Source: Meiothermus sp.
GTDB taxonomy: Bacteria; Deinococcota; Deinococci; Deinococcales; Thermaceae
Length of the DNA stretch: 64,000 bases
Direction: 5' to 3'
Assembly: GCA_026004095.1 (NCBI GenBank)
Contig: BPIL01000016.1
Location: forward strand, 1-64,000
Shown here: positions 34,978 through 41,032 of the stretch, piece after piece
Position numbering within the stretch: the first letter of the stretch is position 1
Layout of the letters: every line of letters begins with the position of its first letter
Translations under genes and position numbers: made by a program
Notes under the pieces: model-generated
What the model was told of the DNA's origin: nothing
Databases searched by the model: none
Seen by the model: the letters and a program-made list of their open reading frames with translations, nothing else

Positions 34978-35439
34978 TTACAAAGCGGGGCGCTCGAGCC
35001 CCCGCAACTCCGCAGCGTGCTTTAGCGCCCGAAGATCGTCGCGCAGGCTGGACAGTTCACGCCGCACGGCGCGGAGGGCGCTGGCCTCGGCCAGCAAGCC
35101 CACGATGTACTGATTCAGGCTCACCTCCTCGGCCTCGGCCTCCTCCACCAGCCGGCGGTGCAGGCTGGGGGGCATCCGCACTAGCACCTTACCGCCGTAA
35201 GCCCGCTCGGTGGAGGGCAGGGGGATCTCGTCGCCGTGCTCGTAGGCCACCTCGAGCCACAAACGCCTGGCATCTTCGATCATCTGCAAGGCCTCCTCTG
35301 CGGTCTCCCCCACCGAGACGCAGCCCGGAAGGTCTTTGATCAGGGCGGTGTACCCCCCCTCGGCCTCGGGAACCAGCGTGATGGGGTAGCGCAGGTTCAG
35401 ATAGTAAGCCAAAGGCTTGCGTGCGGCGGGCTTCCTCAT
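34978..35439 (-). CDS. hicB: HicB-type antitoxin
   Basis: 153-residue antitoxin. The N-terminal RNase H-like HicB domain (about 12-80) has YPITLVPEAEGGYTALIKDLPGCVSVGETAEEAL; only the GCVSVGETAEEA part is the diagnostic core. A C-terminal ribbon-helix-helix segment (VLVRMPPSLHRRLVEEAE) binds DNA, and a coiled tail ends it. It overlaps hicA by four bases (ATGA), the usual order hicA-hicB. Expected to neutralise HicA and repress the pair through the palindrome at 35700-35714. Confidence 0.92.
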   Translation of the reverse strand: MRKPAARKPLAYYLNLRYPITLVPEAEGGYTALIKDLPGCVSVGETAEEALQMIEDARRLWLEVAYEHGDEIPLPSTERAYGGKVLVRMPPSLHRRLVEEAEAEEVSLNQYIVGLLAEASALRAVRRELSSLRDDLRALKHAAELRGLERPAL

Positions 35440-35672
35440 TCCTCCTCCTCCAGAAGCTTGAGCACCTGTCTGAGATACGTGGTTTTCACCACCTGCCCTT
35501 TGTGCTTGGGTACGGTCAGCGTTCGACCATCGGGGTGGCGAAAGATGTGGTGACTGCCGCTCGAGCGCACTTCCTCGAACCCGTGCGCCTCGAGCACCCT
35601 CGCCACCTCCTCGTAGCGCATCTCAGGGGGCCGACGGCGCATCTTCTCGATCAGTTTCTCGAGCTGCCCCAT
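35436..35672 (-). CDS. hicA: HicA mRNA interferase toxin
   Basis: 78-residue toxin with the dsRBD-like HicA fold. The catalytic His lies in SSGSHHIFRHPDGR, and the end is VPKHKGQVVKTTYLRQVLKLL. HicA cleaves mRNA independently of the ribosome. ATG 35672 gives MGQLEKLIEKM, the usual N-terminus; ATG 35684 is an alternative. A TATTAT box lies immediately upstream of 35684. Confidence 0.92.
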   Translation of the reverse strand: MGQLEKLIEKMRRRPPEMRYEEVARVLEAHGFEEVRSSGSHHIFRHPDGRTLTVPKHKGQVVKTTYLRQVLKLLEEEE

Positions 35673-35688
35673 CGGCCCACCCATAAAA

Positions 35689-35727: not shown

Positions 35728-37260
35728 TCACACCCGGTTGCGGCTCAAGTCCCCGAGCAGCACCCTTGCGGCATTCCGCCCGCTCGCGCCCATGATGCCC
35801 CCGCCGGGGTGGGTGCTGGCCCCGGTCAGGTAGAGGCCTTTTAGCCCCGGAAACCTGTACTCGTGGGCCCCCAGCCAGGGACGGAACATGAACATCTGGT
35901 CGGGGGTCATCTCGAGGTGCATCACATTCCCCGCCGGCATGGCAAACTCCTGCTCGAGCCAGAGCGGGGTCTGCACCAGTTCAGCCACAATCTTGCGGCG
36001 AATCTCGGGGTCAAAGCGCTCGAAGCTCTGGATCACCCCCTCCCGGGCCTCCATGGCGCGGGTCTCCCACGTCCCCGCGGCCAGCCTGTAGGGGTAGTAC
36101 TGCGCCCACAGCCACAGGGTCTCGCCCCCCGGTGGGGCCAGGGTCTCGTCCACCGCGCTGAAACTCATGGCGATGAGCGGGGGGTCGCGGGTGGGCTCGC
36201 CCGCCAGGTAGTCGCCGTAGGCCCGGCTGAGTTGCAGCTCGTCGGTGATAAGGAGGCCCAGGCCGATGCGGGCCTCGGGGCCGGGGTGGGTCTGGTAGCG
36301 AAGCTTCTCCGAGAGCCCCAGCCGCAGCACCAGGCCGAAGCCGTTGCCCGCCCGCAGCCCCTTGGCTACCTCGGGGGTCTGGTCGGCGGGCAGCAAGGCC
36401 AGGGTTTTCTGGATGTGCGCCCCGGCCACCACCGCTCGAGCGCTCACGCTCTGCCCGTCCGCCAGGCGCAGGCCCACCGCCCGTCGGCCCTCCAGCACAA
36501 TCCCGGCCACCGGGCTATCCAGGTGCACCTTCCCCCCTTTGGCTTCTATCGCACGCACCAGCGCCAGCGAGAGCCCCCCGGAGCCCCCCCGGGGCCGGGC
36601 CACCCCACCCACGTGGTAGAGCGGGTGCCACAGCAAAAAGGGCGAGGACAACGGGTCGGAGGGCGGCGGCCCGGACTGCGCGGCCATCCAGACCAGGGGG
36701 GCCCGCACCCGTTCCTCGCTGAAGTATTCCCGCGCCACATCGCCGTAAGGCCGCAATATCTGCGGCAGGCGCTTCTGCCAGTCGCGCCCAAACCCGGCCC
36801 CCCAGATCATCTTGCGCCCCAGGTTGAGCGGGCTGGGCGAGGCCAGGAAGGCTTCTTTGACGGCCTGGGCAAAGGGCAGCCAGTCGCGCATGAAGCGGCG
36901 GTAGGCCTGGCCCTGGCCTGGGTAGCGCTCGTCCAGCTCGGCGGCGGTGCGCTCGGGGTCGCGCCAGACAAACCAGCTTTCCCGTGCATCCGAAGCGTGA
37001 AAAAGGGGGTCGAGCTCGAGGTACTCCAGCCCGTGCTTGTGCAGTTCCAGCTCGTCCACAATGGGCGTCAGGCGAATCAGGATGTGGGCGCTGCCCCCCA
37101 GGTCGAAGCGGAAGCCCTCGTAATCAATGGTCGAAACCGCCCCGCCCGGCACCCTGCGCCGCTCGAAGACCCCCACCCTGTACCCGGCCTGGGCCAGGTA
37201 CGCCGCCGTTACCAGGGCGTTGTGCCCCGCCCCCACCACTGCCACATCGAAGTCCGGCAT
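35728..37260 (-). CDS. crtO: Carotenoid ketolase CrtO (CrtI superfamily)
   Basis: 510-residue FAD enzyme close to the Deinococcus CrtO, which adds a 4-keto group to the carotenoid ring. The N-terminal FAD motif is [20 protein letters not shown]; the CrtO-typical block is [13 protein letters not shown], with [17 protein letters not shown] and [13 protein letters not shown] in the core, and [18 protein letters not shown] at the C-terminus. ATG 37260 is used; TATCAT (37275-37270) places transcription start about 3 nt upstream. It stands alone between two toxin-antitoxin pairs. Some Meiothermus carotenoids carry a 2-keto group, so the keto position needs testing. Confidence 0.88.
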
Positions 37261-37301
37261 CTCGGGCGCATGATACCGCAGACTGCCTGCATGAAAACCT
37301 T

Positions 37302-37571
37302 TTAGCGGTAGACATCCCGCCGATGCCCAATCCGCAAGACCAGCACAGTGACCCTCTGATCCTGGATATGGCAGATCAGGCGATAATCCCCTACCCGGTA
37401 CTTCCAAAACCGGCCCAGCTCCGGCCCGTGCAAGGCCTCCCCAATGCTGCGGGGATCATCCAACGAGGCCACCCGCTCGCGCAAAAACCGCACGATGCGG
37501 CGCGCTACCTCACGATCCAGCTTCGCCAGCTCTCCCTCGGCCCGTGGGTCGAATTCAATCCTGTAGCCCAA
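37302..37571 (-). CDS. RelE/ParE-family toxin
   Basis: 89-residue RelE-type toxin ([47 protein letters not shown]). The basic/aromatic C-terminal triad Arg-His-Arg-Tyr is kept, so ribosome-dependent mRNA cleavage is likely. Overlaps the upstream antitoxin by 17 bp. Confidence 0.92.
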
Positions 37572-37767
37572 GGCGGCGCTCCACTTCGTCTAGGGGGATG
37601 CCGGGCAGGTTCTGCTCGAGCCGTTCTAGGGCCAGGTAGTAGTCCTCGAGGTCATCGAGGTGCTCGAGGATGGCCTGGCGCACGTAATAGCTCTTGCTGC
37701 GCCCGGTTTTCTGGGCAAGCGCCTCGAGGCGTTCCTCTATCTCCTTGGGCAGCCGAATGGCCAGCAT
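37555..37767 (-). CDS. Ribbon-helix-helix antitoxin
   Basis: 70-residue RHH (CopG/RelB-like) antitoxin: N-terminal [21 protein letters not shown] and [14 protein letters not shown] form the DNA-binding fold, and the acidic tail should block the toxin. The mRNA is nearly leaderless (TATACT gives +1 about 3 nt before ATG). Confidence 0.9.
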
Positions 37768-37832: not shown

Positions 37833-38660
37833 TCAGGCCCCGCGCAGCCAGATGGCCTTGGGCAGGAGCATCACCCGCTCGTAGGCGGAAAGCGAGGCCC
37901 GGCGCGAGAGGTTGTCCCAGCCGTTCATCTCCAGCTTGTCCAGAATGCCCTGGTACTGCAAAGCGGCCAGGGCCACCGCCCCGCGCCCGGTTTTCAGATG
38001 CTTGAGGCCAGCCAGCCCCTCGCGGTAGAGCCGGCGGGCCTCCTGGGCCAGCTCGCGCATCAGGCCGATGTAGCGCGGGCTAATATGGCCCTGGCGCAGA
38101 TCCTCGAGGGACACCTCGTATTTGCGCATCAGCTCGGCAGGCAGATAAACCCGGCCCAGGGCCAGGTCTTCGCCCACGTCGCGCAGGCAGTTGGTAAGCT
38201 GCATGGCCTGGCCCAGCTTGATGGCCGCATCCCGCCCGGCTTCACCGGCCCCGCCTATGGGCGCAATCATCAGCCCCACGGTGCCCGCCACCCGGTAGCA
38301 GTAGGTGTAAAGCTCCTCCAGGGTGTTGAGCCGCACCGGGTTCAGGTCGGCCAGGAAGCCCTCTTTCATATCGGCAAAGGCCTGTTTGGGAATCTCCCAG
38401 CGGGCCAGAGCCCAGGCCAGGGCCGCTTCCCAGTCCTCCCTGGGAATCCCGGCATAGGCCCGCTCGATGCCCGCCCACCATTCGTTCAGGTCGGCCCGGG
38501 GGTTGGCCGACTCGTCCACCGCGTCGTCCCCAATGCGGCAGGCCGCGTACACGGCCCAGGCCCCTTTGCGGGCCTCACCCCGGAACAGCAGGCTACCGTA
38601 GTAGAACGTGGCCGAGTGTCGGCGGATAATGGCCGATACAGCCTGCCAGTTAGGTTCCAT
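37833..38660 (-). CDS. crtB: Phytoene synthase
   Basis: 275-residue squalene/phytoene synthase that joins two GGPP to phytoene, the entry step of the pathway. The Asp-rich motifs are IGDDAVDE (about residue 45) and NCLRDVGEDLALGRVYLP (about 160). AGGAG lies six bases before ATG 38660, which sets the start over the overlapping ATG at 38666. Second gene after a methyltransferase, with 41 bp between, driven from the LitR-type operator region. Confidence 0.95.
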   Translation of the reverse strand: MEPNWQAVSAIIRRHSATFYYGSLLFRGEARKGAWAVYAACRIGDDAVDESANPRADLNEWWAGIERAYAGIPREDWEAALAWALARWEIPKQAFADMKEGFLADLNPVRLNTLEELYTYCYRVAGTVGLMIAPIGGAGEAGRDAAIKLGQAMQLTNCLRDVGEDLALGRVYLPAELMRKYEVSLEDLRQGHISPRYIGLMRELAQEARRLYREGLAGLKHLKTGRGAVALAALQYQGILDKLEMNGWDNLSRRASLSAYERVMLLPKAIWLRGA

Positions 38661-38701
38661 ACGCATCTCCTAGGGCAACTTCTCCTGAAAACACCGTTTG
38701 G

Positions 38702-39391
38702 CTAAGATTGCACCGAGCCTTGCATAGTGACTTTTGTCCCTGCCACAAATCCTACCGACCCCTCCCGCCAGCCGTCTACCTTGAAACCACTTTTTGTAAG
38801 TGAATCCATAAGCTCTGAAAGGGTAGGAAAGCGCAACCCGGCCACCTCCAGCAGGCGCTGCAGGGGGCTTTGCGAGCGGTGGCTGAACATGACCCAGAGC
38901 CACCCGTCTGGCTTCAGCACCCTGTACAGTTCGTGTATAACCTGCTCGGGGTCGGGGAACTCGTTCCAGCTACCCCCCACCACCACCCCATCCACCGAAG
39001 CCTGGGGCAGGGGGATGGCCTCGGCCCTGGCCAACAAGGGTACGAAACCGGGGTGTCCTCTGGCTTTCTGAAGGGCCACCCTCAGCATGGCCGGCGATAG
39101 ATCGAGGGCGTAGACCCTGGCGGCGCCCGCCTCGAGCAAAGCCCTGGCGTACAGGCCGGTGGAGGTACCCAGATCCAGGAAAACCTGCCCTGCCACCGGC
39201 TGCACCCGCTTCAGCATCAGCGAAAACTCCTCTTCCAGGGGAAAGGGTCTGCCGGATAGCAGCGTGAGGGCCCGCCGGCGCCAAACTTCGTAGCCCAGGG
39301 CGGTGAGGGGCCACAGGTTGGTGCGGGCCGCCAGCGTAAGCGGGGCTTTAGAGCGTTGGTCGGGGGGTGATGCTGGCCTGGACTCCCTCAT
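38702..39391 (-). CDS. SAM-dependent methyltransferase upstream of crtB
   Basis: 229-residue class I methyltransferase: motif I VFLDLGTSTGLYARAL, motif II ALDLSPAMLRVAL, motif IV GVVVGGSWNEFPDPE, motif post-I VLKPDGWLWVMF. The UbiE/COQ5-like fold suggests a small or lipid substrate. Its place as first gene before crtB, behind the light-regulator operator, suggests a role in pigment or isoprenoid metabolism, but the substrate is unknown. ATG 39391 is preferred to TTG 39400. Confidence 0.8.
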   Translation of the reverse strand: MRESRPASPPDQRSKAPLTLAARTNLWPLTALGYEVWRRRALTLLSGRPFPLEEEFSLMLKRVQPVAGQVFLDLGTSTGLYARALLEAGAARVYALDLSPAMLRVALQKARGHPGFVPLLARAEAIPLPQASVDGVVVGGSWNEFPDPEQVIHELYRVLKPDGWLWVMFSHRSQSPLQRLLEVAGLRFPTLSELMDSLTKSGFKVDGWREGSVGFVAGTKVTMQGSVQS

Positions 39392-39411
39392 TCGGATCAA
39401 TTCCTAAAAAC

Positions 39412-39475
39412 TTAGACAAAGATTAGACATAAATCCCGACAAAGCCTTGACATAAGTTATACAGTAAGCTATCCT
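39412..39475. promoter_or_regulatory. CarH/LitR-type operator and litR promoter in the divergent region
   Basis: Five direct repeats centred on ACA begin at 39416, 39427, 39439, 39450 and 39461 (spacing 11, 12, 11, 11); the consensus is close to TTAGACA. The fourth overlaps the -35 TTGACA (39447-39452) of a promoter whose -10 TATCCT (39470-39475) lies 17 bp away and leads to litR. The leftmost copies lie about 25 bp from the methyltransferase-crtB start. CarH repressors bind 11-bp direct repeats overlapping -35 boxes. Confidence 0.75.
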
Positions 39476-39498
39476 TATTTTCAATAAAGGTTTGTCTT

Positions 39499-40380
39499 AT
39501 GCGGAACGATCTGGGGGTTTACACCATTGCCGAAGTGGAGGAGCGCACCGGGCTCTCCAGCGCGCTGCTGCGGCAGTGGGAGCGTCGGTATGGGTTCCCC
39601 CGGCCGGAGCGCTCGCCGGGTGGGCACCGGCTGTACAGCCATACCGACCTCGAGGCCCTGCGCCAGATCAAGAAGTGGATCGCCGAGGGGGTCACCCCGG
39701 CCCAGGCCGTCCGCCGCTACCTGGAAGGCCTGACCCAGGAGGGCCCACGTCCCCCCGAGGCCCTCTCAATGGAGCTCGAGGAGGCCTTGCTGCGGGCCGA
39801 TACCGAGGCGGCCGAGCGCACCCTCTCGGAGGCCTACAGGCTGCACCCTATGGAAACCGTGGTGATGGAGGTCATCGCGCCCTGCCTGCGCCGCATCGGC
39901 GACGGCTGGCACCTGGGCCGCGTGAGCACCGCGCAAGAACATTTTGCCAGCACCTACCTGCGGGGCACCCTGCAGGGCCTGCTCAACCTGATGGGGGGGT
40001 CGCTGGGGCCCACCCTGGTGGTCTCCACCCTGCCGGGGGAGCAGCACGAGATCGGGAGCCTGATCACCGCCTTGTTCCTGCGCCGGGCCGGCTACACCGT
40101 GCACTACCTGGGGCCCAACACCCCCCTGGCCGACCTCCGCTCCTTTGCCGAACGCACCGGGGCCAAGGCCGTGGTGCTCTCAGCGGCGCAGCCCATTTCC
40201 CTGGAGTCGCTGCCACACGAGGCCCTGCGCCACCTGGCCCCTGTGGTGGTGGTGGGGGGCCGGGCCGCGGCCAACGACCCCCGCCTGGTGGAGCGGCTGG
40301 GTGCGCATTACATGGGCAACGACCCCCGTGAGCTGGCCGACAGGCTTTCACACACCTTGAAGGAGCTGGGCTTGTGGTAA
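39499..40380 (+). CDS. litR: LitR/CarH: MerR-type B12-dependent photoreceptor repressor
   Basis: 293-residue regulator: N-terminal MerR winged helix (about 5-75; SSALLRQWERRYGFP), a four-helix bundle, and a C-terminal cobalamin domain. All key features of T. thermophilus CarH are present: W137-H138 followed by E147-H148 (W-x9-EH), the lower-ligand motif ExHxxG (E181, H183, G186), and the His after Trp that ligates Co after photolysis. In the dark, AdoB12-loaded tetramers repress; light breaks the Co-C bond. AAAGG precedes ATG. It sits divergent from methyltransferase-crtB and next to ldrP. Confidence 0.95.
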   Translation: MRNDLGVYTIAEVEERTGLSSALLRQWERRYGFPRPERSPGGHRLYSHTDLEALRQIKKWIAEGVTPAQAVRRYLEGLTQEGPRPPEALSMELEEALLRADTEAAERTLSEAYRLHPMETVVMEVIAPCLRRIGDGWHLGRVSTAQEHFASTYLRGTLQGLLNLMGGSLGPTLVVSTLPGEQHEIGSLITALFLRRAGYTVHYLGPNTPLADLRSFAERTGAKAVVLSAAQPISLESLPHEALRHLAPVVVVGGRAAANDPRLVERLGAHYMGNDPRELADRLSHTLKELGLW

Positions 40381-40441: not shown

Positions 40442-41032
40442 ATGAAAAAGGTACGTAGGAAAGAAGTGATCTACCGGGCGGGCGACCGTGCGGACACGCT
40501 GTATCACCTCGAGCGTGGCCTGGTGCGCATCATCGAGATCTTGCCCGACGGTCGCCAGCTCACCCTGCGGCATGTGCTGCCCGGCGACTATTTCGGCGAG
40601 GAGGCCCTCTCCGAGCGGCAGTACAAGTACACCGCCGAAGCCCTCACCGAGGCAGCAGCTTTCGCCGTTGACCCCCAGAGCCTCTCGAGCGAAGACTTGC
40701 GAGCCCTGGCCGGAAACCTGGCCAGCCAGATGGCCCAGGTACAGGCCTACGAAACCCACCTGCAGTGGGGGGAGCTCCGCAGCCGTATCTGCCGCTATCT
40801 GCTCTACCTGGCTGCCACCGCCGCCCAGGGGCAGGACGAGCGGGGAATCTACGTCACCGCCAGCCATGAAGAGATTGCCGATGCCACCGCCTCCACCCGC
40901 GAGTCGGTGAGCAAACTGCTCTCCGACCTGCGCCACGAAGGCATCCTGGATACCGGCTACCGCAAGATTTACCTGGTAGACCGCAAAACCCTGGAGCTGG
41001 AAGCTGAAAGCCGGATGCTGCAGGCGGTCTGA
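40442..41032 (+). CDS. ldrP: LdrP: CRP/FNR-family transcription activator
   Basis: 196-residue CRP/FNR regulator. An N-terminal cyclic-nucleotide-like beta-barrel (about 5-110; GLVRIIEILPDGRQLTL; PGDYFGEEAL) precedes a winged HTH (about 130-185; ASHEEIADATASTRESVSKLLSDL). AAGGAGG six bases upstream fixes ATG 40442. In T. thermophilus LdrP is made after LitR release and activates crtB without cAMP. No FNR Fe-S cysteines are present here, which fits. Confidence 0.9.
   Translation: MKKVRRKEVIYRAGDRADTLYHLERGLVRIIEILPDGRQLTLRHVLPGDYFGEEALSERQYKYTAEALTEAAAFAVDPQSLSSEDLRALAGNLASQMAQVQAYETHLQWGELRSRICRYLLYLAATAAQGQDERGIYVTASHEEIADATASTRESVSKLLSDLRHEGILDTGYRKIYLVDRKTLELEAESRMLQAV

Follow-up and report, generated by a model that had tools for sequence, protein, structure and literature searches.

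CarH is a well-studied photoreceptor family with uses in optogenetics. Only a few operators have shown how the tetramer, with its odd arrangement, recognizes DNA. The published CarH repeat spans 11 bp (nnnnTnnACAn), and one repeat holds the -35 box (PMC9304148). In Thermus thermophilus, whose protein is that of PDB entries 5c8d and 5c8e, the operator lies in the intergenic region between litR and the divergent crtB; the Thermus arrangement has three contiguous TnnACA units at -11, 0, and +11, counted, as are all offsets here, from the ACA of the litR -35 box, which is itself one of the units. An interleaved DR1-DR2-DR3 contact is described for the T. thermophilus protein. The operator of Bacillus megaterium has four 11-bp repeats in tandem for four DNA-binding domains (PMC9304148). 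At Pcrt of Cystobacter and Myxococcus, the CarH-CarA operator comprises five 11-bp positions, the fourth of which holds the -35 box; the ends or position 2 are degenerate, and tandem pairs are bound by dimers (PMC9304148). For Cystobacter CarH, two overlapping registers over five repeats have been mapped, each dimer needing two tandem repeats and two dimers filling one of the two four-unit registers (PMC9304148). A literature search, with the main structural papers outside its reach, returned no text joining CarH with Meiothermus.

We examined a window of 64,000 nucleotides of Meiothermus sp. DNA, in which a litR gene lies divergent to a carotenoid unit. The intergenic region carries ACA at 39416, 39427, 39439, 39450, and 39461, in steps of 11, 12, 11, and 11 bp, exactly where the initial annotation had placed them. 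This is the sole chain of at least four ACA at 11- or 12-bp steps on either strand of the whole window. None of 100,000 sequences simulated under a first-order Markov model of the same 98-bp region (31% GC) contained the five-ACA chain or a pattern of two plus two TnnACA units. When three mismatches were allowed, 0.02 chance matches to the two-plus-two pattern were expected per window, and three were found, all of them in the litR upstream region. A chance origin of the repeats was ruled out by these Markov controls together with shuffle controls.

Four of the five plus-strand units are complete TnnACA motifs: unit 1 (AACTTAGACAA, 39409-39419, TAGACA), unit 2 (AGATTAGACAT, 39420-39430, TAGACA; 11 bp from unit 1), unit 4 (AGCCTTGACAT, 39443-39453, TTGACA), and unit 5 (AAGTTATACAG, 39454-39464, TATACA). 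Unit 3 (AATCCCGACAA, 39432-39442) reads CCGACA, is degenerate in lacking the T of TnnACA, and probably makes no specific contact. The description of all five as near-TTAGACA units is thus exact for units 1 and 2 only and fails at unit 3. Unit 4 contains the litR -35 box, as had been proposed: the promoter TTGACA-17 bp-TATCCT (39447-39475, plus strand; boxes at 39447-39452 and 39470-39475) points to litR and is the sole consensus promoter within 39300-39550, with unit 5 lying in its spacer. The array has the hallmark of a CarH operator, TnnACA repeats lying across a carotenoid or carH promoter, in that units 1, 2, 4, and 5 are complete and unit 4 supplies the litR -35 box. Runs of at least three contiguous repeats, as in the Thermus and Bacillus type, were not found here, the complete units forming contiguous pairs only.

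The protein encoded beside the array has the features of the AdoB12-dependent photoreceptors. The litR/carH product (39499-40380, plus strand) consists of a MerR-type DNA-binding domain and an AdoB12-binding domain (Pfam MerR_1, B12-binding_2, and B12-binding), scores 400.8 bits against the NCBIfam CarH equivalog NF052513, barely above its cut-off of 400, and matches the T. thermophilus CarH structures with E about 1e-78. It is 53% identical to the Thermus parvatiensis protein. It has the Wx9EH motif (W137, E147, H148), a His directly after the Trp (H138), and the lower-ligand His (H183) in an ExHxxG motif that reads ExHEIG. W137, H138, E147, H148, H183, and E184 are all invariant in an alignment of 14 homologs, which bears out the ligand assignment of the initial annotation, and the region LRQWERRYGFP is mostly invariant as well. 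By sequence, the gene beside the array falls within the CarH/LitR equivalogs and retains every AdoB12 residue. A PduO-type adenosyltransferase gene is also encoded in the host genome.

The gene next after litR is ldrP, encoding a CRP/FNR-type activator (40442-41032, plus strand; longest open reading frame from GTG 40394) that scores 349.3 bits against the NCBIfam LdrP equivalog, whose cut-off is 300. On the other side, the divergent unit begins with a methyltransferase gene (38702-39400, minus strand; start at TTG 39400 or ATG 39391), followed by a phytoene synthase-family crtB (37833-38666, minus strand; Pfam SQS_PSY, E 2e-70). Apart from MAG015, every Meiothermus species whose flanks are complete has the methyltransferase gene between crtB and litR, as do Calidithermus and genus g2. 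This order differs from that in Thermus, where no methyltransferase match was found and crtB usually adjoins litR. The position between divergent genes sets the array apart from Pcrt of Cystobacter and Myxococcus. The array can thus be described, as had been suggested, as a CarH/LitR-type operator of 11-bp repeats beside its own gene and between the divergent litR and methyltransferase-crtB units.

To compare the litR upstream DNA, we used 17 Meiothermus species, 2 species of genus g2, 2 of Calidithermus, and 13 Thermus-type loci, and took column statistics from the 15 best-aligned Meiothermus species. Unit 1 is conserved throughout (T 15/15, ACA 15/15), and unit 2 nearly so (T 15/15; A 14/15, C 15/15, A 13/15), with weaker versions in M. 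luteus and SKYB64 (TATACG) and in G011 (TACCCA). The eight motif columns (T/A/C/A) of these two units have a mean pairwise identity of 0.95, versus 0.34 for the neighboring columns, a difference reached in 0 of 100,000 permutations; for comparison, identity at four-fold degenerate sites of litR is 0.59. On the litR side, unit 4 (offset 0) is TTGACA in 13 and TTGACG in 4 of the 17 Meiothermus species, and unit 5 (+11) has the full motif in all 17. Units 1 and 2 are spaced 11 bp apart wherever both are present, as are units 4 and 5. The left pair stands at -34/-23, -33/-22, or -32/-21, and in M. rufus, where units occur at -22, 0, and +11, one unit has apparently been lost. In genus g2, the left pair is represented by imperfect matches only (TGTTCA and TGTAAA). 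MAG015 (L017 / L040) has lost unit 2, and a complete unit at -11 makes its array a trio like that of Thermus; this is the sole Meiothermus-type genome without the divergent methyltransferase-crtB genes.

These data do not favor the initial proposal of five working units, in which the 12-bp step in the middle would let tetramers bind in two overlapping registers, each serving one promoter. Five ACA are indeed present in the window, and overlapping registers over five repeats, although not new, have a precedent in the Cystobacter operator. A middle unit serving both registers should be the best conserved of the five, and the opposite was observed: unit 3, at offset -11, is the worst conserved (T 3/15, ACA 6/15), and full TnnACA occurs there in only 1 of 17 Meiothermus species, MAG015. 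By conservation alone, no middle repeat shared by two registers of the Cystobacter type is apparent. Nor is the 12-bp step a conserved feature, as relatives have other spacings in its place and units 2 and 4 stand 21, 22, or 23 bp apart. We consider the five-unit reading very improbable.

Because unit 3 is unconserved and the step from unit 2 to unit 4 is variable, the operator is best read as a pair, one empty helical turn, and a second pair, that is, four candidate functional 11-bp units, a number equal to that of the DNA-binding domains in a tetramer. The 21-23 bp between the pairs correspond to about two turns, so the same helical face would be kept. This layout shares the TnnACA unit and the -35 unit with Thermus, whereas unit -11 is degenerate and the second pair lies at -34/-23; the gap also differs from the interleaved contact of T. 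thermophilus CarH noted above. It shares the number of four repeats with B. megaterium, with an empty turn splitting what is a tandem array in the latter. Like Pcrt of Cystobacter and Myxococcus it has five positions with the -35 box in the fourth, the degenerate one here being in the middle. We regard it as a CarH-family operator of a known kind, the conserved split layout of which is apparently undescribed.

On the litR side, the position of the operator supports repression directly, since units 4 and 5 would cover the -35 box and the spacer. For the crtB unit, a search of 39300-39550 gave no consensus promoter. A conserved block (AAGTTTTTAGGAA read on the minus strand, 39401-39414), which unit 1 overlaps, contains a weak -10-like TAAGTT at 39414-39409 and no -35 box. 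Its minus-strand sequence is AAGTTTAGGAA in most relatives; it borders on unit 1 and shifts together with that unit. The block probably holds the core of the methyltransferase-crtB promoter, and control of crtB by the candidate operator is plausible.

Taken together, we think it probable that the adjacent LitR/CarH has the 51-bp stretch 39413-39463 as its operator and that, in the dark, AdoB12-LitR spans both divergent promoters through the two-plus-two arrangement. In this mechanism, which we infer from the layout, a single tetramer with its four DNA-binding domains all engaged, or two dimers that cooperate, one per tandem pair, would sit on one face of the DNA across the empty turn; either form bridging the gap is the simplest account of the array. 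The right pair would place LitR over the litR -35 box and spacer and repress litR-ldrP, and the left pair would place it over the region just upstream of the conserved block, the probable seat of the methyltransferase-crtB promoter core, so that one complex could silence both units. Light would photolyse the cofactor, the oligomer would fall apart, and both promoters would be freed.

The same pairs might instead be occupied by two independent LitR complexes, units 1 and 2 serving methyltransferase-crtB and units 4 and 5 serving litR, with no bridging complex. That the left pair shifts with the conserved crtB-side element and the right pair stays with the litR -35 and -10 boxes, while the distance between the pairs drifts by 1-2 bp, would suit such an arrangement, as would the Cystobacter dimers, each on two tandem repeats. 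We nevertheless find it rather unlikely, since the gap is held at 21-23 bp, about two turns, and since the left unit of M. rufus still lies 22 bp from the -35 unit although one unit is deleted. In Calidithermus, where crtB is still divergent, the second pair lies beyond the -35 box toward litR, the 23-bp distance being unchanged, as would be expected of pairs that act jointly.

The Calidithermus units stand at 0, +11, +34, and +45 (steps of 11, 23, and 11 bp), which makes the -35 box the first complete unit there, against the third in Meiothermus. The chance of such a second pair on one side is 0.00008-0.0002, and the two Calidithermus sequences differ from each other only outside the motif bases. 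With the pattern lying one block downstream, the geometry of the operator would appear to follow the protein rather than the promoters. In 6 of the 17 Meiothermus species, +34 reads TCAACA, which we interpret as a partial trace of the Calidithermus register. Calidithermus (L022, L023) also has an isolated TGTACA about 56 bp upstream of the litR -35 ACA, adjoining an CCCTCCTGGAGGG inverted repeat on the methyltransferase side.

We also considered whether units 1 and 2 belong to another factor, such as LdrP, with LitR on units 4-5 or 3-5. Three contiguous units stand at -11, 0, and +11 in Thermus, the preferred LdrP site (TGT-N10-ACA) also ends in ACA, and the crtB promoter of T. thermophilus needs TAP/LdrP as its activator (PMC5101437), although direct binding there is doubted by another study (PMC7662524). 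However, TGT-N10-ACA is absent from the Meiothermus litR-methyltransferase intergenic region, and an LdrP/CRP site there was rejected on this ground. Units 1 and 2 are moreover the exact LitR motif at the exact LitR spacing, and unit 3, which a Thermus-like trio would require, is degenerate; this assignment is thus highly improbable. In most Thermus-type loci (L025-L032), the DNA separating crtB from the repeats holds an TTTTGTCCCGCCCACA-like block, about 26-41 bp upstream of the litR -35 ACA, with a good score against the LdrP consensus. It was set aside as a TAP/LdrP site, as its hand-counted distance to the crtB -10 box does not give the -41.5 that has been published for TAP and is no clear class II distance.

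The distribution of the layout was examined by scanning 111 Deinococcota genomes for TnnACA-N5-TnnACA-N15..17-TnnACR-N5-TnnACA. The pattern was found upstream of litR in 14 genomes, once in each (12 Meiothermus and 2 Calidithermus); one further match, in G072, lies in an apparent inverted-repeat array and is taken as an artefact, and a reversed-pattern control gave matches in G052 only. Contiguous four-unit arrays in the phylum comprise the G072 array, DnaA-box-like arrays, and one Trueperaceae litR operator (L053 / G096). The last is, as in Meiothermus, a litR-linked TnnACA array that includes the -35 box, with four contiguous units (-22, -11, 0, +11) in place of split pairs. In the host genome, which is about 84% complete, no further two-plus-two array and no convincing three-unit array was detected elsewhere; isolated pairs are possible. 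The single exact three-unit match in it consists of the DnaA boxes between dnaA and dnaN. These boxes (TTATCCACA, L064:1381-1615) stand in 11-bp phase and, by imitating TnnACA arrays, can mislead scans for CarH operators. DnaA boxes were rejected as an explanation of the litR array, from which the DnaA-like arrays elsewhere in Meiothermus differ in kind.

Between its DNA-binding and B12 domains, LitR of Meiothermus, Calidithermus, and g2 has a linker that exceeds the Thermus one by 5 residues (RRYLEGLTQEGPRPPE versus RRYLAQGVRPE), and this shared length may reflect a single event. AlphaFold confidence is below 50 at linker residues 79-81, consistent with flexibility in the predicted model. As a cause of the gap, through added reach, linker length is suggestive only, and Trueperaceae proteins have long linkers too, yet other operator layouts. 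We tentatively propose, as a possibility that falls somewhat short of even, that the LitR tetramer of Meiothermus and Calidithermus sets its four domains as two pairs around an unread turn, helped by the longer linker, and that the Meiothermus complex closes two divergent promoters. If true, this would be a CarH DNA-binding geometry unlike the contiguous modes of Thermus, Bacillus, and Cystobacter. Since this natural operator is conserved, skips a turn, stands at two promoter positions in sister genera, and goes with a longer linker, it allows a direct test of how the domains are distributed, and the Meiothermus and Calidithermus operators are thermophilic material ready for structures.

The carotenoid cluster beyond crtB contains two toxin-antitoxin modules. 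A ParE-type toxin and a ribbon-helix-helix antitoxin (37302-37767, minus strand) lie between crtB and a crtI/crtO-like gene, and a HicAB pair (34978-35684, minus strand) lies between the latter and a lycopene cyclase gene. The long open reading frame of the crtI/crtO-like gene (35728-37407) overlaps the ParE-type toxin, so its true start is probably further downstream.
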